A DNA stretch of 64,000 nucleotides from assembly GCA_902799355.1 (NCBI GenBank), contig CADCAG010000017.1, forward strand, positions 1 through 64,000. The letters run 5' to 3'. The notes under the pieces are model-generated. The model ran no database searches. It saw only the letters and a program-made list of their open reading frames with translations, and was not told where the DNA came from. Shown in pieces: positions 368 to 20,485 of the stretch (position 1 is the stretch's first letter; each line of letters begins with the position of its first letter). The position numbers and the translations under genes were made by a program. This DNA comes from an uncultured Bacteroidales bacterium. GTDB taxonomy: Bacteria > Bacteroidota > Bacteroidia > Bacteroidales > Bacteroidaceae.

Positions 368-766
368 ATGGCACTACTCACCACACTGAAGCTCAAGGAC
401 GTCTCGGACGACTACAAGGTTGCAGACTTCCATCTGCACATGTCGCGCAGCTACAATCAGTTCAATCCTGAATCAGCTCCATCATGCGAGAGTATTGAAA
501 TGACTGTAGTAGCCCCCTCCACAGACGACTACACCATCTACGAATGGTACAACAACGACAGCCTGCTGTCAGGTAAGCTGATGTACGAGCTGCCCGTATC
601 GTTGAACCACACCTATTCGGAGATTCGCACCATCGAATTCCTGGATGCCAGGTGTTTCGAATTCAGTGAGAGCTATGATATTGACAACACAAGCCGTCGA
701 CTGCTGACCATCAGGATCGTACCTGAGAAGGTCATGATGGAAGGTGTTTGCTTCAACAAACTGTAA
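368..766 (+). CDS. tssD: TssD-family T6SS tube protein, second copy
   Basis: A 132-residue protein, the usual length for Bacteroidetes TssD. It opens with a beta strand (ALLTTLKLK) and contains the family features of a Y/F-rich segment followed by an exposed EW dipeptide (IYEWYN), then a strand ending in FLDARCFEFSESYD, where the family normally has a cysteine or tyrosine in a D-A-x-C/Y motif. It is divergent from the copy ending at 283. It may be a specialised tube or tip-proximal ring, or an effector-carrying Hcp. No extra toxin domain is present. It lies 85 bases after the first copy with a hairpin in between. Confidence 0.7.
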   Translation: MALLTTLKLKDVSDDYKVADFHLHMSRSYNQFNPESAPSCESIEMTVVAPSTDDYTIYEWYNNDSLLSGKLMYELPVSLNHTYSEIRTIEFLDARCFEFSESYDIDNTSRRLLTIRIVPEKVMMEGVCFNKL

Positions 767-4300: not shown

Positions 4301-4968
4301 TGGACTTCGACCTGGACGGTGCTTTCACAGCTGGAACTTTCAAGAAGGTGCTGGCCAAAGAGAGCAAGAAAGTTGTACCGACATTAGTTCAAGGTATTAT
4401 TGACAAGACGGAGCTCTTCAACAAGCCTGACGAGGATCTTGTAGAGATGGAACAAAGCAAGAGAATCATCAAGAGGTATCTCATGTACCATATCATCGTT
4501 GGCACCTATGGAGTAGAATATGTTCCTTCTCCTACCAAGATTATAACATTCGATACTATAGATGACTTCGCTGACAATCAAAAATGGCTAGACTGGGTCA
4601 ACAACCTTCATAAATATACCGGTAAGAGCATCAATGGAGGCCCGCTTAACCAGCAAGAATTCGAGTGGAAGAAAATTCACAAGTGGGGATTGGCAAAGAT
4701 AGAGAACGCCGGAAGAAGATCATACGGTCCTCTCGGAAGATTCTTTGGTGAGGTGAAGGATGAATCCGCTAAGAAAGTAGAGAGTTATAATCCCTACAAT
4801 GCTTGGAAAGAGAGAGATATCTGGGGACCTGGACAAAAAGGAGAAATCCTTATCTCTGACAAGGGTGGTCAAGATACCATCAACATTGTTAACGGTGCAT
4901 TGAACCGTACAGAAAACTCTGACGGATACACCAACAAGATTAAAGCATTCCTGTCATCTGTATATTAA
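1354..4968 (+). CDS. tssI: TssI (VgrG) spike protein with long C-terminal extension
   Basis: A 1204-residue VgrG, about twice the length of a plain Bacteroidetes VgrG. Residues 1-410 are the gp27-like hub. Residues about 538-625 are the gp5-type OB fold, recognisable from DPLRYGRVQITYPW and from GGFYFQLEKGTEVLVDYENG. Residues about 745-785 are short beta repeats of the needle (ITINCPNGDVTIKGKNIKLE). Residues from about 800 to the end form a mostly helical, charged extension that I cannot assign. An unusual hydrophobic segment lies at about 327-355 within the hub. The trimer would form the spike on which the tip protein sits. The extension may be a fused effector or a loading platform, but no known toxin motif was recognised and there is no obvious immunity gene next to it. 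Confidence 0.9.
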   Translation: MATTYSFKIGNTDVKYSDSKTIKIDGTEYLLSLLSLRYFKKMYQPGHVEAKLQIRQNAESGMKAPELVPLVAFFRTGKNEVNLSKTVDGKSVVIAENYYVNRVIPEYKRSEKGQYVQVTLHIYSPDHKLTLDKYCRAYTNRKLATDILKRFDEKDSIMKAAGFTSDNVDTEHLKFLRYVVSNKDNQIEYEQFLQPYLVQYNESFFDFMARTANRCGEYFYYENGKLHLGVDNFSDAPTTDNDRKDWVDIDRDSVLSYRYSMAQEELMEVFDHYHNSLKSKDQSSSSAYSFNNELPLDEYLGNLVKINSYTNTLNEFFPKMWGTIPEAIGALTTGGIAGIVAWAVPTVLMGTFFAESVANTKNKIFNEKWVWKDGAGPTGPTMCPGYIKDRFDKSTMKTSLFGTQMPNDVKAKNYVFQQNIDANLYNFIGFGSKIVSENLVDICLPVEHKSFLLGQDVTFESKSDVANKEKNMKPGEVFNFKHYNIIEVSEVIKAEAGDQTKEEWQLGQKITIAPLYSVVVSKYNETAKTNLEIPCPPVMCPFIKTSGTQRAIIYNSVDPLRYGRVQITYPWQNSTENPDCSPFIRQAVPYVPSTDKFGGGFYFQLEKGTEVLVDYENGNIERPFVIGCLYSKNAKAPRDGYTYTGGWSPSLHPDEPKEPLVISSKKGHKIKFDDNGNLEDFLMGASPAIELSSLVWKHLIPSEYRLDQKGESELSGGLSICDKWGIYKINCSTTKRSISIDSPFGAVNLNAFTGITINCPNGDVTIKGKNIKLEAGNEISIHSGTNINPPGHSLWRDTIAKGAVNALLDKFVLPMVDLRLVRTVAEIFLKPAAGTLNLKSNRYLLLGAGLGKPEIPTSAYSAKGLDMKVYHDERGRLHRQLGYTGAVINGFFLDFSQKYKVLRTDINSLVNKLKSDGDKAQQRKNFVEAAYTKKDFTIEDFEFNNHMTRNRKQQIVNEAIEIAKNQQKLLKICEDVFVNAKSMDFDLDGAFTAGTFKKVLAKESKKVVPTLVQGIIDKTELFNKPDEDLVEMEQSKRIIKRYLMYHIIVGTYGVEYVPSPTKIITFDTIDDFADNQKWLDWVNNLHKYTGKSINGGPLNQQEFEWKKIHKWGLAKIENAGRRSYGPLGRFFGEVKDESAKKVESYNPYNAWKERDIWGPGQKGEILISDKGGQDTINIVNGALNRTENSDGYTNKIKAFLSSVY

Positions 4969-6866: not shown

Positions 6867-7259
6867 ATGGGACAGTTTGTTTGTCAGGGCGCAATGCTAC
6901 AGTGCACATTCGGAATGGCACCAGGCACATTCTCGGTCATAGACCCCATGCGCCCAAAATGTATGAATATGGCAATAGGCAACATCATGGACAATAAGCC
7001 CATGGTCAACATAGCACCCTTCGGAATGTGCCAGTCGTTGGCGAATCCGACAGTAGCCGCAGCAACATCGGCAGCCATGGGTGTGCTGACACCTCAGCCC
7101 TGTATGCCTGTGATAGCAGCCCCATGGGCACCAGGTGGACAGGCGAAGATTTCCAACTTCCCTGCCCTACTCGACAACTGCAAATGCATGTGCAACTGGG
7201 GCGGTCAGATCTCTGTCACCATGCCTGGGGCAATAGCTCCAAACACATCGGGAAAGTAA
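6867..7259 (+). CDS. DUF4280 PAAR-like spike tip protein
   Basis: A 130-residue protein matching the DUF4280 (PAAR-like) family. It has an N-terminal GAMLQCTFG segment, a central MVNIAPFGMCQSLANP segment with the usual cysteine, a P-x-P-C-M-P turn and a C-terminal C-x-C-x-W-GG-x-I-S. The cysteines at these positions are probably metal ligands that sharpen the spike, as histidines and cysteines do in true PAAR proteins. It has no C-terminal effector domain, so it would act as a bare tip. It lies 12 bases after the spike-like gene and 4 bases before the next gene, in a tight operon. Confidence 0.85.
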   Translation: MGQFVCQGAMLQCTFGMAPGTFSVIDPMRPKCMNMAIGNIMDNKPMVNIAPFGMCQSLANPTVAAATSAAMGVLTPQPCMPVIAAPWAPGGQAKISNFPALLDNCKCMCNWGGQISVTMPGAIAPNTSGK

Positions 7260-7263
7260 AAGG

Positions 7264-8430
7264 ATGATGAGAAGAGGGCTGATACTGTTGATGATGATTG
7301 CGCTGGCAACGTTGGCAAACGCCCAGCAGATGGGAATCGAGGATTTCTCTCGCCTGAAGCGTCCCTTCTGGAAGCGTTCAAAGGTCACCGTCGACAAGCA
7401 GAAAGCCATTATCGACCTCTACACCCAAGAGAAAGGCTTTGCCTTCACCGCCAACGGCAAGGAGGCAGCAGAGGCCGAAGAGGGTGACGGAGTTATCACG
7501 GTGAAGGTGCCAACGAAAACGCACCACCTCACCATCAAGCACCCCCAATACGGCACACTCACCTGGCGCGTACCGGTGAAGTATCTTAAGCGAAAGAAAC
7601 ACTATCGCGCCACGCTGCTGGCCACTGACAGCACCAAGAAATACAAACTGAAAGAACAGTGGGTGCAGTTTGAGGTATCGCCCAAGAACGCCATCGTGCA
7701 CATGGACACCACTATCATCCTGCTCCGCGACGGACTGATGGCCAAGTATCTGCCACTGGGCAAGCACACCTATCAGGTGGAGGCACCGTTCTATGAAGAG
7801 TTGACAGACAGCTTTGAACTGGCAGACAGCGCCAAGACCATGCTCAGCATAGCCCTACAGCCCACCTACTCGTATCTAACGGTGAGTACGCAGATGCCCA
7901 AAGCTGACATTCGTGTCGACGGGCTGTCCATCAACAAGCAGGAGGAGACGAGTACCCGACTGATTCCTGGTGAACACAGGCTGTCGCTGCACTATAAAGG
8001 CAACTGTTACTACGACGAGCCCTTCACCATCGGACTGGGTGAGAAGAAACACATAGAGGTGGCACTGAAAGACCTGCGACTGCGTCCCGCTGCTGAAAAG
8101 CCGAAGAAGGCGCTGGCCCTGGCACCACCCGCAGAGGCTAACGACAGTACCGCTACGACAGGAGCCAAAGAGGCTGATCCGAAGGATATGGCCGCCTCCC
8201 TACCCCTCGACATGCGAGGAATGGTCAACATTCACAGCAATGTCATTGGAGCACGAATATCCATCAGTGGCAAGCCCGTCGGAGAGACACCCTGCATCGT
8301 GCAAGACTTGTCTACGCGTCGCAGCTACGTCATCACACTGGAGAAAGAGGGCTACAAAACCGTCAAGACTGCCGTCAGGCCTCGTGGTAACGAGTTGACA
8401 GACCTGAATATAAAGATGAAACAAAAATAA
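7264..8430 (+). CDS. Exported PEGA-domain protein of the T6SS operon
   Basis: A 388-residue protein with a signal peptide (about 20 residues, ending NANAQ-like at LANAQQ) and several beta-sandwich modules. The last, about residues 315-388, is a clear PEGA domain: VNIHSNVIGARISISGKPVGETPC followed by YVITLEKEGYKTVK. Earlier parts (about 60-270) look like diverged repeats of the same fold, with a low-complexity K/A/P/E linker at about 275-310. PEGA proteins usually sit on the envelope surface or bind cell wall. In this operon it may belong to the envelope-anchored part of the secretion machine. The start at 7264 could instead be the ATG at 7267. Confidence 0.65.
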   Translation: MMRRGLILLMMIALATLANAQQMGIEDFSRLKRPFWKRSKVTVDKQKAIIDLYTQEKGFAFTANGKEAAEAEEGDGVITVKVPTKTHHLTIKHPQYGTLTWRVPVKYLKRKKHYRATLLATDSTKKYKLKEQWVQFEVSPKNAIVHMDTTIILLRDGLMAKYLPLGKHTYQVEAPFYEELTDSFELADSAKTMLSIALQPTYSYLTVSTQMPKADIRVDGLSINKQEETSTRLIPGEHRLSLHYKGNCYYDEPFTIGLGEKKHIEVALKDLRLRPAAEKPKKALALAPPAEANDSTATTGAKEADPKDMAASLPLDMRGMVNIHSNVIGARISISGKPVGETPCIVQDLSTRRSYVITLEKEGYKTVKTAVRPRGNELTDLNIKMKQK

Positions 8431-8450: not shown

Positions 8451-9137
8451 ATGGACTATTCAGTAAAAATGCTGCTTTCGGAATATAGCAGTGTGTTAGA
8501 AGGATATAGTGGACTGCTCATGCTTCGACTGATGAATCTCTGTGTCAAGTCGAATCCAGTATCACTTCTTCCAGTAGTGATAGAGCACCCTAGTGGCGAC
8601 TTACCTATTGAGGATGTGGCAGATGTCTCTATACCTGATGATGACCATATCGATGTCTATCCGAAGTTGGAGGACGATATCTTCCTCATCGGGAAAAGCA
8701 TCTTGCAGACTCACCCAGAGTTTCAGATGAGTCAAGAAACCATGAAGAATGGAGATGATGAGATGCACTATCTGCGTTTCAAAATGCCTGAGGTCGACAA
8801 GAATCGTCGCGACGTGCTCACGCAAGCTGTCGATGCCTTCTACGAGGAGTGTAAACAACAGCTTAATCAGACAAAAGTCAAGTTCCAGCCTCAATTGACA
8901 GAGAAATGTGCAAGGCTGTCAAAAGAGGATGCCGACAAGGCCAAGGATGATTTTGACAACACCTTCAAGGCCAACACTGACGTAGCTAAGGATACTGTAG
9001 AAAGTAAGAAGAAAGAGATAGAAGATGCTTACCAGCGTTACTTGCAGAAGAAAGCTACTGCTGAACAGGCTACCCAAGAGCAGAAGGCTGCTGAGGGCGA
9101 GGATGTGAAGAGCCAACTCAAAATGCCTACCGAATAA
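8451..9137 (+). CDS. Hypothetical cytoplasmic protein directly upstream of the E1-like gene
   Basis: A 228-residue protein without a signal peptide or membrane segment. Residues 1-50 look like a hydrophobic helical hairpin (VLEGYSGLLMLRLMNLC), 50-130 are mixed alpha/beta, and 130-228 are a long lysine- and glutamate-rich coiled coil. I do not recognise the family. It is not a JAB peptidase, since no HxH-x-D metal motif is present. It ends in TAA, and the E1-like frame begins at the very next base in the same frame, so the two are translationally linked. That position makes it a candidate partner, substrate or accessory factor of the conjugation enzymes, or an unrecognised baseplate component. 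Confidence 0.65.
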   Translation: MDYSVKMLLSEYSSVLEGYSGLLMLRLMNLCVKSNPVSLLPVVIEHPSGDLPIEDVADVSIPDDDHIDVYPKLEDDIFLIGKSILQTHPEFQMSQETMKNGDDEMHYLRFKMPEVDKNRRDVLTQAVDAFYEECKQQLNQTKVKFQPQLTEKCARLSKEDADKAKDDFDNTFKANTDVAKDTVESKKKEIEDAYQRYLQKKATAEQATQEQKAAEGEDVKSQLKMPTE

Positions 9138-10304
9138 TTGGATATTGAGCGTATAGAGTCAGACGTGTTTACCCAGCTGTCGTGGTTTCGCAGAGACCGA
9201 GTAACAGCAGCCAGAGTGATGGTGGTGGGGTGTGGTGCCTTGGGCAACGAGGTGCTTAAATGCCTAGCACAGTTTGGCATACAGCATATCGTCGTTGTAG
9301 ACTTCGACCACGTAGAGCCAGAGAACCTGACACGATCGGTATTCTTCACCATCGACGATGCCATCAACAGCAGGCGGAAGGTCGATGCTGTGGCAGAGCG
9401 TCTGACAGCCATGAATCCAGACATCGAGGTAGAGAGCATCTTTGGTGACATCGCCTACGATGTCGGTCTGGGACTTGTCAAGAGCATGGATGTAGTGATA
9501 GCCTGTGTCGACAACCGCTGGGCACGCTACTGCATCAACCGCCTGTGCATGAGGGCTGGAGTGCCCTGGGTAGACGGTGGCATCGACGGTCTTGAGGGTA
9601 CGGCACGAGTATTCCGCCCTGGCGAGAACTGCTATGCCTGTAATTTAGGACCGGAAGGGTTGAAAGACCTGAAACGCCGCATGCCCTGTGCCGGTATTAT
9701 CCGTCGCAACGAAGCTGCCGGCCGTGCTGCCACCACGCCCATCATCGCCTCCATCATCGGTGCCGTAGAAGTACAGGAGGCGCTAAAGCTGATACACAAG
9801 GAACAGCTGGCGGCTGGTGAGCTGACGTCACTATGTGGAAAAATGTTTTGCTACGAAGGACAACATCTGACCACTCGAAACGTTATATTTAAAGCCTATG
9901 ATGATGACTGTGCCGTACACGAGCAGTGGCAGCCTGTCATCAAAACCGACATAACGACGGCAAGTACGGTGGCCGACACGTTACAGCAGCTGCAACAGCT
10001 GCTCAACGACGAGGCCCCACAGATATGCCTCAACGACTGCTTTGTAGACATGGTGGAGCTACGCGCCACTGGTGAGCAAGCAGAAGTGATGAAGCCCGGC
10101 AGAGCCGTCAGCGACTATATTGAGCAGAATGCCACACTGCGTGGACGCATGCTCAGTGAATTGTACCAGCACGAATACAACCTGCTGGACAACACGTTCC
10201 CATATCAGCAGCTGACGCTGGCTGACGTGGGAATACCTGCATGGGATGTGTTACACGTCATTACCGCAGCAGGAGAAAGTTATATTGAAATGGACAAACA
10301 ATGA
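9138..10304 (+). CDS. E1-like (ThiF/MoeB-fold) ubiquitin-like activating enzyme
   Basis: A 388-residue protein with the full adenylating core. It has an arginine finger region (R18, R19), glycine loop G31-x-G33-x-x-G36, D55-x-D57, N63-L-T-R66, K81 and D125. C165/C168 plus C258/H261 match the split zinc site of this family. C184, in MPCAG before the crossover segment, is the likely thiol-forming cysteine. Residues 263-388 form an extra C-terminal domain that could recruit the modifier or the E2. The start is TTG directly after the upstream stop; GTG at 9165 is an in-frame alternative and keeps all motifs. The next gene overlaps by 4 bases. There is no thiamine or molybdopterin gene nearby, whereas a Ub-fold protein and an E2 are in the same operon, so a conjugation role fits best. 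Confidence 0.85.
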   Translation: MDIERIESDVFTQLSWFRRDRVTAARVMVVGCGALGNEVLKCLAQFGIQHIVVVDFDHVEPENLTRSVFFTIDDAINSRRKVDAVAERLTAMNPDIEVESIFGDIAYDVGLGLVKSMDVVIACVDNRWARYCINRLCMRAGVPWVDGGIDGLEGTARVFRPGENCYACNLGPEGLKDLKRRMPCAGIIRRNEAAGRAATTPIIASIIGAVEVQEALKLIHKEQLAAGELTSLCGKMFCYEGQHLTTRNVIFKAYDDDCAVHEQWQPVIKTDITTASTVADTLQQLQQLLNDEAPQICLNDCFVDMVELRATGEQAEVMKPGRAVSDYIEQNATLRGRMLSELYQHEYNLLDNTFPYQQLTLADVGIPAWDVLHVITAAGESYIEMDKQ

Positions 10305-11092
10305 AGAAGATAAACCAGAATCTGTCAGAGGCCAATGCAGAGATGCTGTTGCACTATCTCTACCCGGAGATGGACGACAAATGGACGGTGGAACACCAAG
10401 GAACGTTCTACCGTAACTTCAATCGTGACCTGATAGTTTATGACGAGGAGACCGGTGAAGTACAGGTGGCACGTGACAGTTTCACCAAGCTGCTGCCTCC
10501 TGGTTTATTGTTCTCTGAAAGTTCGCTGAAGGGCAAGGGTCAAAAGAACAAGATTAACAAGCTGAACGATCGTCAGCGCATGTTACGGGAAATGTTCCAG
10601 CCCATAGACAATGTCTCCTTTAAGCGGCGGATGAATATAGAGCGGGAGATTGCATCACTACTGGACACCAAGCAACAGTACGTACTCAGCACCTACTTCC
10701 ACTACGACATCAAGGCAGAGACTAATGAATATATCAAGCAAATGGCAGGATTGTTGCCGTTAGTGCGCGACATCAGAGGAGACTTCAAGCTGATACGCAA
10801 CATATTGGCAACGCTATTCAAATGCGAGGTGACATGTACGTTCGGACGCTATAGTGATACAGACCAGTCACGCTCTTGGATTCCTCAGGTAGCCTACGAG
10901 CTGATCATCGAAGAGCTTACCCCCGAGAGCTACGAACAGACTGCCAAGAATTTGGAAGAGCTTCGTCAATTCATGCAGGAGTGGTTTATCCCATTCGACG
11001 TAAACTGCGTCACGACCATTAAGTGGCACAACCAGTCCATGAACGACAGCAAGCATTGGATGTTGGATTATAATACGGAATTAAAAGTTTAG
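10301..11092 (+). CDS. tssG: TssG-like T6SS baseplate protein
   Basis: A 263-residue cytoplasmic protein that overlaps the E1-like gene by ATGA. It is predicted mixed alpha/beta, with an RDSFTKLLPPGLLF segment near residue 60 and a long helical middle. A segment at about 160-180 (IRNILATLFKCEVTC) resembles the place in TssG where a domain start is followed by a beta strand. Its neighbours are TssK, TssE and TssF, and TssG is the expected missing wedge partner of TssF. The assignment rests more on operon position and size than on signature residues, so an unrelated baseplate accessory protein is possible. Confidence 0.5.
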   Translation: MKKINQNLSEANAEMLLHYLYPEMDDKWTVEHQGTFYRNFNRDLIVYDEETGEVQVARDSFTKLLPPGLLFSESSLKGKGQKNKINKLNDRQRMLREMFQPIDNVSFKRRMNIEREIASLLDTKQQYVLSTYFHYDIKAETNEYIKQMAGLLPLVRDIRGDFKLIRNILATLFKCEVTCTFGRYSDTDQSRSWIPQVAYELIIEELTPESYEQTAKNLEELRQFMQEWFIPFDVNCVTTIKWHNQSMNDSKHWMLDYNTELKV

Positions 11093-11101
11093 AACAAAGA
11101 T

Positions 11102-12241
11102 ATGGATATCAACGCGAGAATCAACTGGAGACCGGGAATGGAGCTGACCACACAGACCTTCCTGGACATGGACGAGAATCTGGACTTCAGACAGCAGACA
11201 GCCATCCGTGCAGCATTGGGTGACCACTGTATCGGACTGCTACCCGATATGCCATTCGACAATAGTGGAATGTTTTATACCAACAGATACGAGATGCAAA
11301 GACTGCAGTGTACCGCGCTGCTGCCATCAGGACGCATCATTCAGGTTGATGAGCCCGTAAGCATCAGCATCCCGATGGTCTTTGGCGACTCGTATTATCT
11401 GACGATAGGTATCGGAGAGGGAAAGATTCCATTCGAGAAGAGGGATATCAACTATATCCGTCCGCAGTATTCCTACGCTATCATGACGTTAGAGAATGTA
11501 ATCAACAACGACGTCTTCCCCGTCATTCGCTTTACGGTAAAGGATGGCACATTCTCGGAGGACAAGGACTTTATTCCCCCTTGTCTGTTGATATCAGGCG
11601 ACAAGCGTTTCGAAACCTATCGTAATCGCTATGCTGACTTGCTCCAACAGTTGGGCGAACATGCGAACTTCAAAGAGGGCGATGGCAAGCAGGCCATGTT
11701 GCGCTATATGTTCCGCATGCGTTCACAGTCCTTGCAGGGACAAGGTATTGAATTCCTGAGACTGACACAGGAGATAGCCCAAGCTGTGGACTATTTCATC
11801 ATGCGTCCGAATACGAATCAGACCATAGAGATTCCTACTCCAGTACAAGCAGATCCCGGCAAGTGGCTGAAATGGTTTGAAGACTATCTGGCAGGTGCTA
11901 GCAACTTGCTGGACGGCGTCACGCTGGTAGATGACAGCATAGACTATGAGGCACTGCTGGCTCAGGCAAAGAAAGAACTCTATGAGCAGTTGCATCCAGA
12001 ATTGTTCGAGCTCTTGCTGGAGCGTATCAAGACAGAGCTTCGTGAGGAATTGCATAACAGTCTGAGTAATGAGCTCACCAAGTATATGGAAGAGGTTGTG
12101 AAGCCGGAGTTGGGACGTATCCTCAGTCAGGAGCTGTATGAGAAGCTATACGAGAAACTGTATACTGAACTCTTCGAGAATCTGTTCAATGCCCTTTATG
12201 TGCCTGAACCAGAAGAGAAGGAGTATATTCCGCAGATTTGA
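11102..12241 (+). CDS. tssK: TssK T6SS baseplate connector
   Basis: A 379-residue protein that starts with the TssK hallmark, an INWRPGMELTTQTF stretch, which matches the W-x-E/P-G-M-x-L-x-P-x-x-F opening of the family. Beta-rich shoulder domains follow, with ALLPSGRIIQVDEP and a SISIPMVFGDSYYLTIGIG strand pair. A helical neck comes next, then a strongly periodic Glu/Leu helix at about 290-365. TssK joins the baseplate wedges to the membrane complex. The C-terminal helix is longer than expected and replaces the usual globular head, which is the part that contacts the membrane complex. That is consistent with a non-standard membrane complex in this lineage. Confidence 0.75.
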   Translation: MDINARINWRPGMELTTQTFLDMDENLDFRQQTAIRAALGDHCIGLLPDMPFDNSGMFYTNRYEMQRLQCTALLPSGRIIQVDEPVSISIPMVFGDSYYLTIGIGEGKIPFEKRDINYIRPQYSYAIMTLENVINNDVFPVIRFTVKDGTFSEDKDFIPPCLLISGDKRFETYRNRYADLLQQLGEHANFKEGDGKQAMLRYMFRMRSQSLQGQGIEFLRLTQEIAQAVDYFIMRPNTNQTIEIPTPVQADPGKWLKWFEDYLAGASNLLDGVTLVDDSIDYEALLAQAKKELYEQLHPELFELLLERIKTELREELHNSLSNELTKYMEEVVKPELGRILSQELYEKLYEKLYTELFENLFNALYVPEPEEKEYIPQI

Positions 12242-12242
12242 T

Positions 12243-12284
12243 GTGAGATGTAAGAAGTAAGATGTCAGATGTAAAAAGCAAGAA
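12243..12284. repeat. Degenerate 7-base tandem repeat, about six units
   Basis: Six consecutive 7-mers of the form G-T/C-x-A-G-A-x fill almost the whole spacer between the tssK-like and tssE-like genes and stop two bases before the tssE start. Unit identity is about 5 of 7. No hairpin or promoter box is visible. Confidence 0.75.
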
Positions 12285-12286
12285 GT

Positions 12287-12739
12287 ATGGAGAATCTTGT
12301 ATCACCACTGGAAATCGTTATGGGCGGTATTTCACGTACCGACAACATCAAAGAATCGATTAACTCGTTCTTAGAGATACTGCTCACCTCGGCCTGCGGC
12401 GACTGCTGTATAGACCCGGAATTCGGCTTTATCTTCAACAACATGCGTTTCGAGATCTTCAATGAACGTGAGGGCACGATTTACAACTCAACGACACCAG
12501 AAAGCGAAGAGGAAGACGAGATGTACACCAAGAAGATATCCGGTAATTCACGCAATCTCAACACCTTTGCCACAGACCTGAAAGAGGTCATCATGAAGTA
12601 CGAGCACCGCTTGGCAGATGTGGCTGCTACCATGTCCTATGTGCGTGAAGAGCGTAAGATATATATCACAGTAACAGGTGTCATCATTGACACAAAAGAG
12701 AAATACAAGTATGACACTACACTGAAAATTTGGAGTTAG
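12287..12739 (+). CDS. tssE: TssE (gp25-like) T6SS baseplate protein
   Basis: A 150-residue protein of gp25 type. It has an N-terminal helix (SINSFLEILLTSACGDCCIDPEFG) in which the acidic DPEFGF segment is the usual gp25 signature, then a linker, a long helix (FATDLKEVIMKYEHRL) and a final beta hairpin (ERKIYITVTGVI). The R-L pair in KYEHRL corresponds to the E-P-R-L motif of gp25-like proteins in a degenerate form. It forms part of the wedge with TssF and TssG and nucleates the sheath. The tssF start follows six bases after the stop. Confidence 0.8.
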   Translation: MENLVSPLEIVMGGISRTDNIKESINSFLEILLTSACGDCCIDPEFGFIFNNMRFEIFNEREGTIYNSTTPESEEEDEMYTKKISGNSRNLNTFATDLKEVIMKYEHRLADVAATMSYVREERKIYITVTGVIIDTKEKYKYDTTLKIWS

Positions 12740-12744
12740 GAACG

Positions 12745-14457
12745 ATGAAACAAACAGCATTCGATACACGACAACGGGCGGCAGAGCTACTCCAGGAGGC
12801 GGCAGCCATCTGGCGACAGAGTGCCCATAGCGAACAGCTGGAAGGCATAGAGCGCGACCCGATATTCTCGCTGCTTATCACTGCGTTGGCCTATCAAGCC
12901 AACGAGACAGACAGCGATATTGAGCGTCTGAAACAGGACGTACTGCAAGAGTATGCCAGTCTGATGACTCCCTATGAGGCTGGTCGTCCCATTCCTGCTA
13001 CTGCTATCGTGGAGGCTGTTTTGAAGAGCGATGTGGCAGAAACAGAGCTCAGCGAACAGTCTGTTTTCTATTTAGAGAATACGCGATACCAGTTTATGCC
13101 ACTATTACGGCAGCGTATTATCAACGCCTCCATATCCAACCTAACCCGTATTGATGGCAGGCGATGGAAGGTGACACTGGTATTCCAAAATCCTATCAAG
13201 GACCTCACGGGAATGACTTTTGCCATTACAGATCCTCGCTTTCAGGATGTTAAAGTGACTGTCAACAACACCCTGATGCGACTGGTAAAGCCATGGAACT
13301 ATGCCGACATGCCACTACAGCCATGCTTTTCCACAGAGTCGCTTTTGTACAATAAGGCACAGATGTACAGTGCCTCACTGGCAGCACTGGATTTGTTTGC
13401 TAACCAGAATGTCGCCATCTTCTCTATCAAGAAGTTCCTGACGGACTCTGTCATTCCTGCAGAAACCAGTACTTTAGACATTGTATTCGACTTCCAAGGG
13501 ATTCCCGAGGACTTCAAATTTGACAAGAGCCACTTTGTATTAAACCCTGTGCTGCTGATTAATGCCAAGATTTCTACAGCTACACTTTCATCAGCTAGCC
13601 CCATTGTGAGGGTCACTGGATATACTCCTACCAGTCCCGATGAAAGCCAACTGATGCATCTGGTGCCTCCTTCAGAAGAACAAATGTTCGGCAAAACCCC
13701 CATTGAAATACGCCGTGTCTCGTCCGACCGTTTCAATCAGGCCACACTCATGAAACTGATTAACAGTTTGACGACAAAGTTCCACTCTGACTACTATGCT
13801 TTTCTGGAAATGAGGAGCAACGGTATGACTGAGGTCATCAGGAATATGCAGGACGGACTGTTGAAACTGTCACGAGCTGTGAGACAGGAACAGTTGCACA
13901 GTACACCTGGCGTATATTTGTTCATCAACCGAGACTTCATGACGGAGTCAAAGAACATCAGCCTTGATATCTCCTATGTCACGACTCCCGGAGCAGCCGT
14001 CAACAGCAGTTTGTCGTCCGACAGCCGCTTCATTCCGCCTGCAGGCTTCAACGGCTCGGCCATGCGGTTGATTACAGATCCTATAGGAGGCTTCGATGAA
14101 ATCAACGATACTGAGAGACTTCTCAACTATGCCCGTTACCAAATGGTCACCAACGATCGCATCGTTACACCTGCCGACATGAAGATACTATGCTATACCG
14201 AACTGACAAACCGCTATAGCATTGCTCCCACCATGATTAGCGAAATGACGGTCTGCCATCGCCAACAGGCAGATAAGTCCGACTGCGGCTATGCGTTTTG
14301 GGTCAATATCAGACTACAAGATAACCCCTTTGTCCGCCGTAGCTTTGCGGACAAGATTCCACAGGCAGAGATGTACCTTCAGAAGCGCTTAAAGGTAAGG
14401 AGTTCGTGCATACTCCCCATCTATGTCAATATACAAATGGAAACAGATACTATATAA
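12745..14457 (+). CDS. tssF: TssF T6SS baseplate wedge protein
   Basis: A 570-residue protein with the TssF opening: a helix with DPIFSLLITALAYQANETDSDIE, then LLQ-like helices and a Y-x-x-L-M-T-P-x-x-x-G-R-P-I-P-A turn that corresponds to the YP-RP-P-S motif of the family. Beta-rich lobes follow, with repeated F-Q-x-I-P strands. The reading frame is open from a TTG at 12730, but the ATG at 12745 gives a normal helix and avoids overlap with tssE, so I use that start. It is the main wedge subunit. The ubiquitin-fold gene begins nine bases downstream, so the two are probably co-translated. Confidence 0.8.
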   Translation: MKQTAFDTRQRAAELLQEAAAIWRQSAHSEQLEGIERDPIFSLLITALAYQANETDSDIERLKQDVLQEYASLMTPYEAGRPIPATAIVEAVLKSDVAETELSEQSVFYLENTRYQFMPLLRQRIINASISNLTRIDGRRWKVTLVFQNPIKDLTGMTFAITDPRFQDVKVTVNNTLMRLVKPWNYADMPLQPCFSTESLLYNKAQMYSASLAALDLFANQNVAIFSIKKFLTDSVIPAETSTLDIVFDFQGIPEDFKFDKSHFVLNPVLLINAKISTATLSSASPIVRVTGYTPTSPDESQLMHLVPPSEEQMFGKTPIEIRRVSSDRFNQATLMKLINSLTTKFHSDYYAFLEMRSNGMTEVIRNMQDGLLKLSRAVRQEQLHSTPGVYLFINRDFMTESKNISLDISYVTTPGAAVNSSLSSDSRFIPPAGFNGSAMRLITDPIGGFDEINDTERLLNYARYQMVTNDRIVTPADMKILCYTELTNRYSIAPTMISEMTVCHRQQADKSDCGYAFWVNIRLQDNPFVRRSFADKIPQAEMYLQKRLKVRSSCILPIYVNIQMETDTI

Positions 14458-14466
14458 CAAGAAAAT

Positions 14467-14790
14467 ATGGAAGAAAAGGATTTCCTGTTAGACATTGTCT
14501 ATAAGAACAAAACCGTCAAGTTCAGGGTCGTCAATCCAGAGGCTCCTTTGGAGACGCTGATGACTAACCTGCGCCATGCCATCGGCAATGACGGCAAGCT
14601 CATCTTTGACTTTCCGTCTATCGACCAGACGGGAGCACCACTCGACTACTTCTTTGGGAAAGAAGATCCTGAAGTGCATGAGATCAGAGTGCTGCGTCCA
14701 CGCATAGGACATACCGACCAGACACTGGCCGATTATAAGATTAATAATGGTGACACTGTTTACCTGATGCCAGACCCATTCCCTGGATGA
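14467..14790 (+). CDS. Ubiquitin-fold (beta-grasp) modifier protein ending in glycine
   Basis: A 107-residue protein. It opens with a beta hairpin (DFLLDIVYKNKTVKFRVV), then a helix (LETLMTNLRHAIG), a middle strand (KLIFDF) and a final element TLADYKINNGDTVYLM at residues 86-101. That last element lines up with the TL-x-DY-x-I-x-x-x-x-T-x-x-L end of ubiquitin. The chain ends PDPFPG, so a terminal glycine is already exposed and no processing protease is needed, although it has PG rather than GG. It lies between tssF and the E2 gene. I infer that the E1-like enzyme adenylates Gly107. Alternatives are a sulfur carrier or a non-conjugated structural Ub fold, like YukD of type VII secretion. Confidence 0.75.
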   Translation: MEEKDFLLDIVYKNKTVKFRVVNPEAPLETLMTNLRHAIGNDGKLIFDFPSIDQTGAPLDYFFGKEDPEVHEIRVLRPRIGHTDQTLADYKINNGDTVYLMPDPFPG

Positions 14791-14804
14791 GGAAATAGCG
14801 AAAA

Positions 14805-15380
14805 GTGAAGAGTGAAGACTTTAATCCCAAGATGCTGAGTGGACGCAACAGACGGTTGCTCCATGAGTGGCGGACGTTGGAACAAGGGCTAGAAGGCCGT
14901 TCTGACATCACCTGTCGTGTGCTGACCACCAATGCGGAAGGTCTGCCCACGGCATACCTCGTCGACTACGCGGTACGTAGCATCTCGGGCGTCACCAACG
15001 TGGAGCACCTGAACGAGCCTGGCGTCAGTAATGAGCCCGTTTACAATGACCACTTTACCATGCAACTCACGTTGCCTGCCAACTATCCACAAGTGGATGG
15101 TGCACCAGTCTTCAACTTCCTGACCATTGATGGCAATGGACATGACATCCCCCACCCCTGGCATCCCAACATCCGATACTTCGGAGCCTTTGCCGGCAGG
15201 GTCTGTATCAATATGGTCGATACCTACTGCGACCTCTTGTGGGCAGTACGACGCATCGCAGCCTATCTGCGCTACGACACCTACCACGCCACACTGGAGC
15301 CGCCACACCCGGAAGACCTGCAGGTGGCAGCATGGGTGCGCAATCAGGGAGAGCCGAATGGGTGGCTGGCCTTTAGTTAA
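14805..15380 (+). CDS. E2-like (UBC-fold) conjugating enzyme
   Basis: A 191-residue protein with a recognisable E2 core. It has an N-terminal helix (NRRLLHEWRTLEQG), strands including FTMQLTLPANYP and APVFNFLT, then H120-P121-N122-I, G131 and C134 in a GRVCIN segment. W146 precedes the following helix, and the chain continues EPPHPED, as in E2s where a P-rich turn follows. C134 is the expected thioester cysteine and the HPN motif is intact. The start is GTG; the next ATG (14832) would still keep the core. There is a 55-residue loop region before the strand with FTMQ, longer than in small E2s. It follows the modifier gene by 14 bases. Confidence 0.85.
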   Translation: MKSEDFNPKMLSGRNRRLLHEWRTLEQGLEGRSDITCRVLTTNAEGLPTAYLVDYAVRSISGVTNVEHLNEPGVSNEPVYNDHFTMQLTLPANYPQVDGAPVFNFLTIDGNGHDIPHPWHPNIRYFGAFAGRVCINMVDTYCDLLWAVRRIAAYLRYDTYHATLEPPHPEDLQVAAWVRNQGEPNGWLAFS

Positions 15381-15410
15381 GAATTAAAAGATAAGAGTAA
15401 TATATCATAT

Positions 15411-16565
15411 ATGAATATCATACAAAGAGCATTTATCATAGGAGTCTGCTGTCTGGCAGCCATTACCATACACGCAAAGACGGTCAAGACCATCACCGTC
15501 TCTGACAGCGTACCATTTACAGACCATATAGCCATGGCTACTGATGCCACGGATAAAGACCTGATGGTGAAATTCGTTTTCGACGAAAAAAAAAATACGT
15601 TGACGGTCAGCGTCCTCTCCTTCCGCATGCTCTTCGTTTTCTGGGAGTCGACACCCTATAAAGGAGTTGTCAGTCGTCGCTGGATACACACCGACCGTCT
15701 GCCATACGTTGTGACAGCAGAGGAGGGTCAGCAGTTCCGCCTGACGAAGCCGTTCCGCAACTCACTCACACACCCTTACAAGAAGCATGTCTTCAAGAAA
15801 TGGATAGAATATGAAGGACTACAGCCGCAGGAGAAAGAATTGAAGATGCTCAACGACTATATCGACCAGACCTTCGACATCCAAAACAAGCGCAACAATG
15901 TGACCGTCCGCCTACGCGACGTGATGCTGATGGATGCTACGCGTCAGAAAGGCATCAATACCCGTTATGAGATTGGTTTCGGCAAGGATCTGGATACCGA
16001 ATACCAGATTACCATCCAGCGTAACCCCTGTTTCGGGTTGGAGAAGGAGATAGAGAGTGCCACGAAGTCACTGGAGGCTATTAAGAAGAGCTATAAGTCA
16101 CTCAAGGCAAAATACGGCAAGGGGACCGTTAATTCTGACGAAGGCCAGAAAGCGTTTGCCGAACTCAAGGCTACGCTGACAGCACAGTTCCAGCAGATTA
16201 ACGACAGCAGTGCTTGTCCTGACATACAGCAGTGCTACACGCAGTACAATCTGTATGCCGACTCGCTAGCCAACATGAAGGTTAGCATTGCTGCTCCAGC
16301 AGAATCCTCGGAAAAGATTCTGGGTGCCAAAGGCAGTGAGGCCAATGCAAAGATTGTGCTGACCAATTCGCGACTGCTAGACAACAAGGTGGCTTTGTGG
16401 CTCAATAGCCGAGACCCCTTAGAGCGCCAGGACATCGTAGCTACCTGTCAAAACATTATTAAAGACACAAAGCTCATCATCAGTACATTACCATCAGCGC
16501 AATATAAAGAAACTATTAAGGTGTTCAACAACGCAGAACAGTATTTCAAGAAGACATGCAGATAA
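15411..16565 (+). CDS. Exported T6SS-operon protein, function unknown
   Basis: A 384-residue protein with a signal peptide (about 22 residues, cut near IHAKT). The middle, about 40-130, is beta-rich with aromatic strands (RMLFVFWESTPYKG). Residues about 210-300 form a coiled coil of lysine, glutamate and serine with a cysteine pair (C near 264 and CPDIQQC). The C-terminal 80 residues are helical. It lacks a transmembrane segment and should be periplasmic. The position between the E2 gene and two envelope proteins suggests part of the Bacteroidetes-specific membrane complex (the TssO/P/Q/R set), but I cannot match it to one of these names. Its stop overlaps the next start by 10 bases. Confidence 0.6.
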   Translation: MNIIQRAFIIGVCCLAAITIHAKTVKTITVSDSVPFTDHIAMATDATDKDLMVKFVFDEKKNTLTVSVLSFRMLFVFWESTPYKGVVSRRWIHTDRLPYVVTAEEGQQFRLTKPFRNSLTHPYKKHVFKKWIEYEGLQPQEKELKMLNDYIDQTFDIQNKRNNVTVRLRDVMLMDATRQKGINTRYEIGFGKDLDTEYQITIQRNPCFGLEKEIESATKSLEAIKKSYKSLKAKYGKGTVNSDEGQKAFAELKATLTAQFQQINDSSACPDIQQCYTQYNLYADSLANMKVSIAAPAESSEKILGAKGSEANAKIVLTNSRLLDNKVALWLNSRDPLERQDIVATCQNIIKDTKLIISTLPSAQYKETIKVFNNAEQYFKKTCR

Positions 16566-17461
16566 CGAGGCACATACTACACTGGTTGCTCTGCCTGCTC
16601 CCGATAGCAGCAATGGCTCAAGCACCGGCATCTGACGCATCTAATGCATCAGTTGCTGATGGTTCGCCAGAAGCTCTACATGAGGAGCTCAGTGCCCGTA
16701 TGACGCAATATATCGATGAACTGAATGAGCTGTCCTCTGTCAGCGATGTACAGGTGATGTTCTCCAATACGTTACCGCTATCCAAGCAGTATATCAATGT
16801 ACTGAAAGACAAAGTCAACCTTCTTGAAGAGCGATACAACTCCATCAGTCTCCGTTGGACAACATTCTCACAAGCCATGCAGGTGGACATTGCTGACGAT
16901 GAAGAACTGATGAACCTCATGACCAATGTAGAAGAGGTAAAGAAGGCTGTTGGCGATTCCATCGCTTCGAAGAAGGAAAAGTGCAACGCGCTACAAGATT
17001 TTGCTGACGCAGAACATATGCTGGCTGGTCAGGATACCATCTATAAGAGACTCTATGAGAAGGCTTTTAGATTATCGCTGATTCAAAAGCTGGCACCACA
17101 ACTGGAGAAACTCAAAGCCCGTGAGCAGGCCCAATATGCAGAAATCCAGCAGAGTTATCAGAAAGCGCAACAAGCCTGTGAGCTATTGCCTATACTGAAA
17201 AAACGCATCGGCACGCTTGACGACTCTTTCTCCAATATCCAGATGATATCCAAGAAGATACAGGAAACAGAATACAAACCATTCATACAACGTATTAAGG
17301 ACTACCTCATTGGCTTTGCCTGTGCTGCCATCCTACTACTCTTTTTCAATATGCTGACGAGTAAGATGAAGGCCATAAAAACAGCCCGCCAGCAGGCTAA
17401 GAAATATGAAGAGATGATGCGCCAGAACGGCAACGGCCCTGGAGGATACCCGACGATATGA
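16556..17461 (+). CDS. Exported coiled-coil protein with C-terminal membrane anchor (T6SS envelope)
   Basis: A 301-residue protein that overlaps its upstream neighbour by 10 bases. It has a signal peptide (cut near AMAQAPA), then long periplasmic helices with heptad leucines (about 40-240). A single membrane segment lies at about 247-267 (LIGFACAAILLLFFNML), with a positively charged, short cytoplasmic tail rich in K/R followed by GNGPGG. The topology is periplasm-out with the tail inside. It resembles the single-pass rods of Bacteroidetes T6SS membrane complexes in layout, though I cannot name the subunit. It precedes the multi-domain VWA protein. Confidence 0.6.
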   Translation: MQITRHILHWLLCLLPIAAMAQAPASDASNASVADGSPEALHEELSARMTQYIDELNELSSVSDVQVMFSNTLPLSKQYINVLKDKVNLLEERYNSISLRWTTFSQAMQVDIADDEELMNLMTNVEEVKKAVGDSIASKKEKCNALQDFADAEHMLAGQDTIYKRLYEKAFRLSLIQKLAPQLEKLKAREQAQYAEIQQSYQKAQQACELLPILKKRIGTLDDSFSNIQMISKKIQETEYKPFIQRIKDYLIGFACAAILLLFFNMLTSKMKAIKTARQQAKKYEEMMRQNGNGPGGYPTI

Positions 17462-17467
17462 GAAATG

Positions 17468-17507
17468 GAGAGATTGAGAGATTGAGATAATGAGAAATTG
17501 AGTGATT
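17468..17507. repeat. Degenerate 8-base tandem repeat, five units
   Basis: Five 8-mers of the form GAG-A/T-x-A-T-T lie in the spacer before the VWA/RING/FHA gene. The longest open frame begins at a TTG inside the repeat (17498), which is not convincing, so the repeat also argues for the downstream ATG start. Confidence 0.75.
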
Positions 17508-17521
17508 ATTATCATATGACG

Positions 17522-19924
17522 ATGAAGAATAAGATAAAGATACAGACCTACCTACTGGCTATTGTCACTACCCTGCTCCTGACGGGTTGTGACCAACTGG
17601 TCAGCTATTTTGCCACTCCTGACAATTTAGATTTTATTGGCAGTTCATCGGCTGACCAGAAGGAAATCATACAGGTCCATCAGGTAACATTCTCACCTGA
17701 TTACAAGACGTTTAGCGTCACTACCCGCATGAATGGTGACATCGGCCCATATAGCTTAGGCGATTCCACCAAGGTCAGAATTGAAGTCAACAGCTCCATT
17801 GGTGGTGTTAGCGAGAACAAGTATTCCCGCCCACACCTCACGAAGGTCATCAACACCAAGGCCGAGAATATAGCCAAGAAAGAAGTGCAGGTGCTGGCAC
17901 TAATCGACCTGACACAATCGCAGGAGACGTTAGATGCTATCAAAGATTATCTGGTAGAGCTTAGTGCGGTATTCAACGACTCCAACCTGTATGTAGCCTT
18001 TGCTTATGGTGATTCTATCAGCAAGTCCCTCCTTGCTACAGATTATGTTCTTGACAAACATATTGTTTCGGCTCATCAGAAGCATGTATTCCTGTATCGT
18101 GCCATCGTTCAGAAATACGATGAGATGATGTCTCATCAAGGCCCGTGGGCTAATGCCAAACGGATGGCCTTGCTGACATTCTCTGATTCTGAGGTGTATG
18201 ACAACAACACCAACATGCCTATTGACCCCGACCACTACACCTTTGAAGAGGAAATGGCTCAACGAGGCAACCATCCAGATCCGAACATGACAGTATGCTA
18301 TGCCGGCATGAACACGTCATCGCAAGATGCAAACTCTCAAGACATTTTGGTGCTGAAACACTTCTGCCACATGACCAATGGCATCTATATGCGTCCCTAC
18401 AGTGGAAATGATTTTAAGAACTGTATTCTGGAAGCGTTCTCCATCAGTCCTGATGCCAACGAATTTGTCTTTGAGAATCCTGACGGGAAGGTCTATCGAG
18501 GTAGCTTTGAGACGCTGAATGTAAAGTTCTACAGCCAGCAGGCAGACTCGCTCATCGCCTCTTTCACTACCCTCATCAATGAAGGTGACTTCTATAACCC
18601 GATTATTGTTCATGGTTTAGCGAGACCAGTGGTTATTCTGATAGGAATCATCATTGCCATCGTCATAGCAGGTATCCTATGGTTACTGTTGCAATACTTG
18701 GTACCATTCATCCACTATAAGTACTTCTGCCACAAATATGTGATGCGCTATTCCGGCCATAACATGGGCCTTGGCGCCAACATGGTGGCAGAGTCGTGCT
18801 ATCTGTGTAAGGAACCTTTTGAGGTGAACGATGAGATTGTCGTGAAATGTAGCCATACCATGCACAAAGAGTGTTGGGACGAAAACGGCTATCACTGTAC
18901 AGAATACAGCGACCGTTGTAAGCATGGCTCACATTATTATAATAGTAAGAACCTCTCTGACAAGCACAATGCCCCATTCTTTACCAAGTGGGTACTGGCA
19001 GGCGTGGCTGCTACCACATTTGCGTGGATGCAGTTTATCTTTAGAAGCCATCGGGTGACGGAGTGGTTAGCCACTCATCTGTCTCTGCTGCTTACCGGCA
19101 TAGAATCCGGCAGTCCTGAAGCAACGGCATTGTTCAACGACAACCCCGTATCACCGTTGCCTTCATTCGGGTTCTCCAGTGGTTTCTTCATGACACTGGC
19201 TGTAGCCCTGTTGTCAACGAAGCTGGTGAACGTACGCCACAACTTTGTGTCATACCTAATACATGCTTTGGTGGCTGCCGTATTAAGTTTCTTGGTATTC
19301 CTGTTCACCAACGTTCTGGTAATCAGTTCCGGCATCAGCGACTATGCTTTCTTAGTGGAATGGACACCTTGGGTAATCTCTGCAATCATCATTGCAGCCT
19401 GTGGCACACACGGCACCCGTGTGGTACTGCGTAAGCGACTGATTATTCCGTGCACCATCATTACCATTTTCGCCACATACGTCTTATGGATGTTCTATTC
19501 CGGTTTCCTGGATTATCGTCTTATGCTGCTGGTGGCATTCCTCGTCTACGGTTGTGGACTCATGCTATGTATTGCGATGGTGGCACCAAGGTCAGAGCGC
19601 TACTTCCTAAGGGTGGAAGGTGCCGTCAAGGAGATGGACATTGCCATCTACAAGTGGTTCCGTAACGATCCAGATCGTGTGGTAACCATCGGTAAGTCAG
19701 TAGACTGCAGCCTACAGTTGTCATGGGACCTCATGGGCGATATCGCTCCTATCCATGCAGAGATTCGCATGCGACACAATATCCCCTACCTGACAGCTAT
19801 AGAAGATGGCGTCATCGTCAACGGGAAGCCAGTAGAAGTTGGCCATGAGGTATGGCTTTACCATGGCACGTCGTTCTCTATTGCGAATACGACATTCACC
19901 TATTTCGAGAAGGATTTAGCATAA
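17522..19924 (+). CDS. VWA, RING-H2-like, polytopic membrane and FHA protein of the T6SS operon
   Basis: An 800-residue protein from ATG 17522. Residues 1-23 end in LTGC, a lipoprotein-type signal. A VWA domain follows with MIDAS-like D129-L-T-Q-S133. The first membrane segment is at about 369-394. A zinc site then follows with C426-x2-C429-x13-C443-x-H445-x2-H448-x2-C451-x7-C459-x6-C466, which fits RING-H2 except for the wide last pair. About six membrane segments cover 485-695, and an FHA domain with IGKS and HAEI covers about 700-800. A periplasmic VWA puts both the RING-like site and the FHA domain in the cytosol. FHA domains bind phosphothreonine, and RING domains recruit E2 enzymes, so this could be a membrane E3. 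It may also be a fusion of the Bacteroidetes TssR- and TssN-like subunits. A longer frame starts at TTG 17498, but that lies in a repeat. Confidence 0.75.
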   Translation: MKNKIKIQTYLLAIVTTLLLTGCDQLVSYFATPDNLDFIGSSSADQKEIIQVHQVTFSPDYKTFSVTTRMNGDIGPYSLGDSTKVRIEVNSSIGGVSENKYSRPHLTKVINTKAENIAKKEVQVLALIDLTQSQETLDAIKDYLVELSAVFNDSNLYVAFAYGDSISKSLLATDYVLDKHIVSAHQKHVFLYRAIVQKYDEMMSHQGPWANAKRMALLTFSDSEVYDNNTNMPIDPDHYTFEEEMAQRGNHPDPNMTVCYAGMNTSSQDANSQDILVLKHFCHMTNGIYMRPYSGNDFKNCILEAFSISPDANEFVFENPDGKVYRGSFETLNVKFYSQQADSLIASFTTLINEGDFYNPIIVHGLARPVVILIGIIIAIVIAGILWLLLQYLVPFIHYKYFCHKYVMRYSGHNMGLGANMVAESCYLCKEPFEVNDEIVVKCSHTMHKECWDENGYHCTEYSDRCKHGSHYYNSKNLSDKHNAPFFTKWVLAGVAATTFAWMQFIFRSHRVTEWLATHLSLLLTGIESGSPEATALFNDNPVSPLPSFGFSSGFFMTLAVALLSTKLVNVRHNFVSYLIHALVAAVLSFLVFLFTNVLVISSGISDYAFLVEWTPWVISAIIIAACGTHGTRVVLRKRLIIPCTIITIFATYVLWMFYSGFLDYRLMLLVAFLVYGCGLMLCIAMVAPRSERYFLRVEGAVKEMDIAIYKWFRNDPDRVVTIGKSVDCSLQLSWDLMGDIAPIHAEIRMRHNIPYLTAIEDGVIVNGKPVEVGHEVWLYHGTSFSIANTTFTYFEKDLA

Positions 19925-20470: not shown

Positions 20471-20485
20471 AAAGGAAGTATAATC

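Follow-up and report, generated by a model that had tools for sequence, protein, structure and literature searches.

A type VI secretion system (T6SS) operon of an uncultured Bacteroidales bacterium encodes an E1-like activating enzyme, a ubiquitin-like modifier (Ubl), an E2-like conjugating enzyme and a membrane protein with a RING-like site, and these genes are interleaved with those of the baseplate. The operon lies at the start of the window, by which we mean the whole stretch of 64,000 bases that was analysed (bases 1-64000 of contig CADCAG010000017.1, here C17; assembly GCA_902799355.1, a genome of 2.87 Mb, 82.9% complete). With a probability of roughly two in three, the operon is predicted to provide a pathway that attaches the Ubl covalently to a part of the secretion machine, likely at the site on the inner membrane where the baseplate docks. 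The proposal builds on gene content and order, on conserved residues, on folds recognised by profile or model and on the mutual exclusion with TssN among the genomes compared; from these we infer the conjugation, its substrate and its effect.

The E1, Ubl, E2 and RING proteins

A first-pass annotation of the window had read four open reading frames (ORFs) as an E1-like enzyme with intact ATP, zinc and candidate thiol residues, a beta-grasp protein ending in glycine, an E2 with an HPN motif and C134, and a polytopic protein with a RING-like site. All ORFs that it named were found and are open, and the four assignments held (coordinates in Table 1). For the comparison, one genome per species was scanned. 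The best 80 loci of 110 E2 relatives and the window gave 81 core loci, a few of which may stem from the same genome (L096 and L099 both belong to a single metagenome-assembled genome). Residue counts leave out copies below 70% of the length and duplicate genomes.

In the E1, the residues G31, G33, G36, D55, N63, K81, D125 and C184 and the zinc set C165, C168, C258 and H261 were identical in all 75 core and all four divergent sequences, and R66 was kept in 97% of the core. We take these residues to make up the ATP site, the zinc site and, with C184, the catalytic cysteine. PDB profile matches were to ThiF, MoeB, SAE2 and UBA1. By its sequence, the protein is a predicted member of the E1/ThiF family with ATP site, zinc site and candidate catalytic cysteine.

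The Ubl was modelled with AlphaFold2 at a predicted local distance difference test score of 86.1. The model has the ubiquitin topology and matches SUMO, ubiquitin, EccD, talin and a bacterial Ubl (8tyz chain B). A terminal glycine was present in 84 of the 85 copies in the loci, of which 67 end in DPFPG, 14 in DPIPG and three in IAG; the remaining one ends in KPVS and is a second, transmembrane (TM)-fused copy in L023. Database relatives numbered 1114 at E 1e-3 or better, and all 120 among the matches listed carry the terminal glycine. The mean pairwise identity of the Ubl was 77.8%, the highest of 16 gene families, with TssG, TssK, TssE and TssF at 45.8-52.3% (in this comparison the Hcp set consists of mixed paralogues and VgrG has n=3). 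The modelled beta-grasp fold and the C-terminal glycine are those of a Ubl, for which covalent attachment is predicted; the first-pass annotation had counted the lack of a beta-grasp fold among the objections to its reading. As a separate observation, the T6SS locus L023 (1586-2401 and 13852-15285) combines the membrane-fused second Ubl ending in KPVS with a TssC paralogue that is likewise a second copy and evolves fast.

The E2 family UQ_con was matched in 18 of 18 aligned members, the window E2 by itself scoring below the cut-off. A distant relative passed Pfam (35.4 against 27 bits) and matched E2 entries of the PDB down to 1.6e-7. H120, N122 and C134 were identical in 81/81 core and 4/4 divergent sequences, and P121 was invariant in both alignments (27 and 18 sequences). 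Among the 120 matches listed of 503 E2 relatives, the HPN..C pattern was found in 119; P0108 reads LPWHPN..C. These profiles and residues assign the protein to the UBC family, where the first-pass annotation had named the lack of a UBC fold as a point that would speak against it. The plasmid collection gave no E2 match at E 1e-5.

In the RING protein, residue numbers count from the TTG at 17498 and are lower by 8 if counted from the ATG at 17522. Its layout comprises a lipobox with C31, a likely periplasmic VWA domain, a TM segment at 378-396, a RING-H2-like region at 434-474 (18797-18919), further TM segments and an FHA domain at 729-795. The ligands C434, C437, C451, H453, H456, C459, C467 and C474 were identical in 74 of 74 core sequences (three fused copies stand outside this set), and the last ligand pair is spaced x6, not x2. 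Among the divergent proteins, L018, L020 and L022 have all eight ligands, L024 has a gap in the column of C467, and the L021 sequence is fragmentary. Prok-RING_1 and zf-RING_2 were found in 39/39 RING members, with the window protein below the cut-off, and the 38 PDB profile matches were mainly to RING proteins, many of them termed E3 ligases. A fold model of the RING segment was weak. VWA exceeded its cut-off in two homologues but did not do so in the window protein. The eight cross-brace Cys/His ligands of RING finger E3 ligases are thus recognisable in the sequence, and a ligase activity is predicted.

Two genes between E2 and RING encode likely periplasmic proteins. The first has relatives in L131 and L134 (hhalign 86% and 90%). 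We considered the protein before RING as a JAMM protein that had been stripped of its protease and rejected this, since L131 encodes a related protein (hhalign 77%) and has JAMM in a gene of its own. In L044, L068 and L070, the gene before RING shares a single ORF with the RING protein.

The T6SS operon and its conservation

The 5' end of the window, which is also the start of the contig, falls inside the operon. From Hcp to RING all genes lie on the + strand, in the series Hcp genes, VgrG, DUF4280, PEGA, RRF paralogue, E1, TssG, TssK, TssE, TssF, Ubl, E2, two proteins with a predicted signal sequence and RING. No gene of the E1, Ubl, E2 and RING set is disrupted, and the set is interleaved with the four baseplate genes, as had been noted before. 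The intergenic gaps from E1 to RING are −4, 9, 45, −10, 9, 14, 30, −10 and 36 bases. The next ORF follows RING after 165 bases.

The order E1-TssG-TssK-TssE-TssF-Ubl-E2-x-x-RING, with its strand, is the same in all 81 core loci. The full ten genes are present in 73 of them, and in the remaining eight the contig ends inside the cluster. In the ten-gene order, E1 lies directly before TssG in 76 of the 76 loci showing the two genes, with gaps of −60 to 100 bases in 68 of these, and the Ubl follows TssF in 81/81 (the same range of gaps in 77). The baseplate block is constant, whereas the upstream VgrG, DUF4280, RRF and PEGA genes vary. The hosts belong to Prevotella, Bacteroides, Parabacteroides, Alistipes and other genera; named carriers are Xylanibacter ruminicola D31d, Bacteroides mediterraneensis An793, Mediterranea massiliensis and Millionella massiliensis. 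The first-pass annotation had placed the set inside the T6SS operon and had named a lack of joint conservation in T6SS loci of relatives as an objection; the 81 loci bear the placement out. In a wider search, the E2 profile matched five genomes out of 344 in the order and three out of 395 in the phylum, the host genome being counted in each, and the module is therefore patchy.

Several tail parts of a T6SS are present, namely Hcp and VgrG in the window and TssC elsewhere in the genome. TssC is found at C19:490-1845, at a contig end and beside a partial Hcp. Given this position, the part missing upstream from the operon is probably that with the sheath genes, the contigs C17 and C19 being unjoined. 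TssC adjoins the module in G020, G237 and G105. The TssB match was weak (15.7 bits, cut-off 24). Since the ATPase scored higher with ClpB than with ClpV, and under both cut-offs, its label as ClpV rests on position.

The baseplate proteins were assigned partly through relatives in L114, the locus of genome G078, and in L136 (G105). TssE passed the gp25 cut-off itself, as does its L114 relative at 46.7 bits. TssG and TssF are named after linked relatives that pass Pfam: the L114 TssG matches PF06996 with 25.6 bits (cut-off 24.6) and the L136 TssF PF05947 with 28.4 (cut-off 25). The TssF family hidden Markov model (HMM) also matches two L114 proteins at 6e-20 and 1e-19, both without a Pfam match. 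TssK scored below its cut-off, and the TssK-like protein of L114 is also below that of Pfam. By these profile matches, a TssE, TssF, TssG and TssK set is predicted, of which TssE is over the cut-off, TssF and TssG are named via relatives and TssK is seen below the cut-off only.

We then compared the distribution of E2, TssC and TssN in 100 genomes including the host. E2 was present in nine, TssC in 11 and both in seven. TssN was over the cut-off in three genomes (G016, G026 and G078), all TssC-positive and E2-negative. It was over the cut-off in none of the nine E2-positive genomes and in 0/5 of a further search that included G105, G237 and G301. Five more TssN matches were below the cut-off, two of them in the E2-positive G059 and G020. 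The E2-positive genomes without TssC are G047, where the contig is cut and baseplate genes lie on the same contig, and G075; G042 has a TssC fragment only. Within the 100 genomes, TssC scored 333-434 bits in the E2-positive and 745-768 bits in the three TssN-positive ones. A clean gap between the groups did not stand, as G105 lies in between at 568. In an unrooted tree of 15 of the 23 long TssC matches, three of them TssN-positive, the TssN-positive sequences were set apart with a support of 1.0 and G105 adjoined them; being unrooted, this tree cannot order the two T6SS types in time.

The locus of G078 encodes TssN, TssO, TssR and PKD proteins by Pfam. Proteins in it were matched by the family profiles of TssF, TssE, TssK and TssG, whereas the profiles of the two envelope families, E1, Ubl, E2 and RING matched none. 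TssO, PKD (TssP) and TssR had no Pfam match in the window operon, to which this search was confined. The three envelope families reached less than 1% in hhalign against TssN, TssO, PKD and TssR of L114, the one locus compared, in which TssQ was not identified. Judged by these profiles, the membrane complex of the T6SSiii type, that is TssN and, in the operon, TssO, PKD and TssR, is not recognisable here.

Divergent loci, proposed role and alternatives

Six distant loci join the module to T6SS genes. G059, G047 and G049 are of the same genus, with E2 43-46% identical, and show the order RING-E1-TssG-TssK-TssE-TssF. G237, G105 and G301, from other families of the order, have a ClpV/ClpB-type ATPase, TssB, TssC, two Hcp, VgrG, Ubl and E2, arranged in this order and with further genes in between. 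TssC passes Pfam in G237 and G105, and in these two the remaining genes lie downstream of E2, where the contig of G301 ends. In five of the six loci, the sixth being cut by the contig, a protein with a JAMM motif (type HSHPG..F.S..D) is encoded between E2 and RING. Of the five, the protein of G237 passes Pfam JAB (22.9, cut-off 22.5), three are below the cut-off and the L021 protein has no match. A scan of the ORFs in the 81 core loci for the JAMM pattern gave only one unrelated 82-residue chance match (L068); outside the core loci, one match lay in a flank (L014).

In general, an E1 adenylates the C-terminal glycine of the modifier and passes it to the E2 cysteine, a RING protein brings the charged E2 (E2~Ubl) to the substrate, and JAMM proteases cut isopeptides. 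The E1 of the operon would adenylate G107 of the Ubl and hand the Ubl via C184 to C134 of the E2. Because of the lipobox and the topology of the hydrophobic segments, the RING domain is predicted to face the cytosol at the inner membrane, where it would recruit E2~Ubl, so that E2~Ubl would be brought to the membrane at which the baseplate docks. The FHA domain of the protein is likewise predicted to be cytosolic. The Ubl would then be conjugated to a baseplate or membrane-complex subunit, and the baseplate would be linked or licensed at the envelope. In this type of T6SS, the place of the TssN-type membrane complex may be taken by the RING protein together with the two likely periplasmic proteins encoded ahead of it. 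In the divergent relatives, a membrane-anchored JAMM protein could reverse the tag; none was seen in the window lineage. If conjugation supplies the baseplate contact, both the mutual exclusion of TssN and E2 and the gene order would be explained. In other bacteria, FHA domains take part in controlling the T6SS post-translationally, and a ligase gated by phosphorylation would be in keeping with this. The invariant lysines K83 of TssE and K196 of TssK were considered as pointers to the substrate and found too weak to name one.

A further-reaching proposal would see here a separate contractile injector, in which a RING/VWA/FHA anchor replaces the membrane complexes, senses the envelope via VWA and joins the baseplate by Ubl conjugation, with JAMM lineages dismantling it by deconjugation. 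We put this forward tentatively, as rather more doubtful than probable.

The conjugation might also serve the T6SS by tagging cargo or tube, such as an effector, VgrG, Hcp or a PAAR-like protein, for loading. The divergent loci are consistent with this, as VgrG precedes their Ubl and E2, mostly with DUF4280 in the intervening stretch, and so are the PAAR genes next to the module in G466 and G560, with an eCIS-core protein as well in G466. The core loci argue otherwise, since the Ubl invariably follows TssF and E1 precedes TssG, while it is the upstream VgrG, DUF4280, RRF and PEGA genes that vary. We consider cargo tagging unlikely, and it is the best placed of the alternatives to attachment at the baseplate.

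In the three genomes G075, G466 and G560, the E1-Ubl-E2-JAMM-RING module was found without a T6SS sheath or baseplate match in the approximately 40 kb examined, and the module is therefore not exclusive to T6SS. The RING ORFs of G466 and G560 are cut at the ends of the stretches, which places their RING motif outside the assessment. The JAB relatives in G075 and G466 clearly pass Pfam (34.7 and 34.0 bits), the one in G466 having matches to RPN11, CSN5 and AMSH as well. The Ubl ends in AGYLVV in G075, in PG in G466 and in PGGK in G560. These genomes would suit a self-contained Ubl regulatory or conflict module that travels with the T6SS and modifies other proteins, for example in self-protection or stress, and Ubl modules do occur in defence elsewhere, according to the available parts of PMC7159879 and PMC10097602. 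Such a traveller accords poorly with the interleaving with baseplate genes in 81/81 core loci, with TssC in seven of the nine E2-positive genomes (and baseplate genes on the E2 contig of G047) and with the lack of TssN above the cut-off in E2-carrying genomes. We judge it less likely again than cargo tagging.

In G075, the module lies beside SrfB and the Virul_Fac family, and no TssC was found genome-wide; its contig (L024, L117) also carries another JAB protein as well as additional Ubl-like ORFs. In G466 and G560 (L142-L145), the neighbouring PAAR genes score 47.2 and 41.6 bits (cut-off 27), and the neighbours in G466 include, besides the eCIS-core protein, an nSTAND1 NTPase, the scan for these two being confined to G466. 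Here the module may have a second setting related to contractile injection.

In T6SSiii, the contact to the baseplate has been proposed to run via a ubiquitin-like domain of TssN (PMC10781749, in the parts available). The Ubl could correspondingly be a non-covalent adaptor, an equivalent of this domain in trans that E1 and E2 merely bind; the match of its model to EccD domains and the lack of TssN above the cut-off in E2-positive genomes would agree with this. The conserved C184 of E1, the HPN and C134 of E2, the terminal glycine and the JAMM proteins of relatives are hard to explain by binding alone, and we regard such an adaptor as very improbable. A ThiS/MoaD-type sulfur-carrier pathway, to which the closeness of the E1 to ThiF and MoeB might point, is scarcely credible given the E2 and RING genes and the gene order bound to the T6SS, and thiamine or molybdopterin genes were not recognised beside E1.

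Known systems and neighbouring genes

The T6SSiii of Bacteroidota (GA1-GA3, TssNOPQR; PMC10781749 and PMC4714493, as far as available) has TssC, Hcp, VgrG and TssE, TssF, TssG and TssK in common with the system described here, for which the TssB match is weak. According to the same parts, its TssR has a VWA domain, as do the homologues of the RING protein. In contrast to T6SSiii, TssN is not above the cut-off in the nine E2-positive genomes, TssO, PKD and TssR are not recognisable in the operon, and E1, Ubl, E2 and RING are found instead.

The bacterial E1-E2-Ubl systems CBASS Cap2, Bil and Bub (PDB entries 8tyz and 9ea5) share the E1, E2 and Ubl parts, and the Ubl model matches 8tyz chain B. 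A JAB/JAMM protease is an operon feature of the Bil/CBASS-type Ubl systems. The module described here differs in being bound to a secretion operon, in its transmembrane RING protein and in that no JAMM was seen in the window lineage. The ubiquitin folds EccD and YukD of type VII secretion are not known to be conjugated or to have E1 or E2 partners.

The tri-ligase Ubl systems of FtsH-ternary conflict operons (PMC7159879) have E1, E2, a RING-type E3, JAB and Ubl in common with the module; there, the Ubl forms fusions with the E2 and with an effector-associated domain, and T6SS genes are not named in the available parts of that paper. An archaeal pathway (PMC5654768) likewise combines a prokaryotic ubiquitin, E1, E2 and a small RING protein; it is archaeal, and a link to secretion was not seen in the part available. 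Iyer 2006 describes E1/E2/Ub-like/JAB operons, in the accessible part with no T6SS link, and the polymorphic-toxin paper PMC3482391, equally in part, gave no such T6SS pathway. The word ubiquitin is absent from the main text of Coyne 2016 (PMC4714493; GA1-GA3) and of PMC8102008. Among the literature matches listed, which included no bioRxiv preprints and few subscription papers and were in part available as excerpts, there was no report of E1, E2 and Ubl in a T6SS. The E1/Ubl/E2 pathway and the T6SS are each of a known kind, and their fixed combination without a TssN-type complex appears to be new within the searches made.

The bacterial Ubl pathways in the literature consulted act in defence, conflict and cofactor making, whereas the present one has its fixed place among genes for assembling a secretion machine, in genera of the gut. 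If the proposal of covalent attachment is true, it offers a natural bacterial setting for the question of which purpose ubiquitin-like conjugation served before there were eukaryotes. It may then also account for the anchoring and control of T6SSs without a recognisable known membrane complex in the operon. As named isolates carry the module, direct testing is possible.

Table 1. Genes of the operon in the window, with the evidence for each assignment
Feature	Position	Strand	Evidence
Hcp tube protein (TssD)	368..766	+	PF17642 45.6 bits, cut-off 25.8
VgrG-like spike	1354..4968	+	Phage_base_V 31.7 bits, cut-off 23.8
DUF4280 protein	6867..7259	+	PF14107 102 bits
PEGA-domain protein	7264..8430	+	PF08308 76.5 bits; frequent in operon
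RRF paralogue	8451..9137	+	PF01765, 53 bits
E1-like activating enzyme	9138..10304	+	ThiF 169 bits; candidate catalytic C184 at 9687-9689
TssG baseplate (predicted)	10301..11092	+	family HMM matches L114 TssG at 7.7e-7; hhalign 64%
TssK baseplate (predicted)	11102..12241	+	TIGR03353 4.8e-6, below cut-off; HMM matches L114 TssK-like protein at 9e-13
TssE baseplate (predicted)	12287..12739	+	gp25 29.7 bits, cut-off 27.2; 2.3e-13 to L114 TssE
TssF baseplate (predicted)	12730..14457	+	no own Pfam TssF match; family HMM matches L136 TssF at 3.1e-30
Ubiquitin-like modifier (predicted)	14467..14790	+	C-terminal ..DPFPG; terminal G107 at 14785-14787
E2-like conjugating enzyme	14805..15380	+	HPN 15162-15170; candidate catalytic C134 at 15204-15206
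Protein with predicted signal sequence, conserved in core loci, likely periplasmic	15411..16565	+	hydrophobic N-terminus
Protein with predicted signal sequence and C-terminal TM, likely periplasmic	16556..17461	+	hydrophobic segments 7-25, 247-265
Membrane RING protein (predicted)	17498..19924	+	FHA 25.0 bits, cut-off 20.7; hydropathy scan

The DUF4280 protein is presumably PAAR-like. The interval 8451-19924 opens with the RRF paralogue at 8451-9137; this gene was considered as a baseplate gene and ruled out by its PF01765 match, TssG being 10301-11092. The host genome holds a separate, far stronger RRF match of 219.6 bits. With duplicates counted, HMM matches were found in 55 loci for the RRF paralogue and in 67 for the PEGA family, and in some loci the RRF paralogue lies on the opposite strand together with PEGA. 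After RING and the 165-bp gap, 20090-21889 encodes a small VWA protein and an Lcl_C-domain protein, with HMM matches in just six and seven loci.

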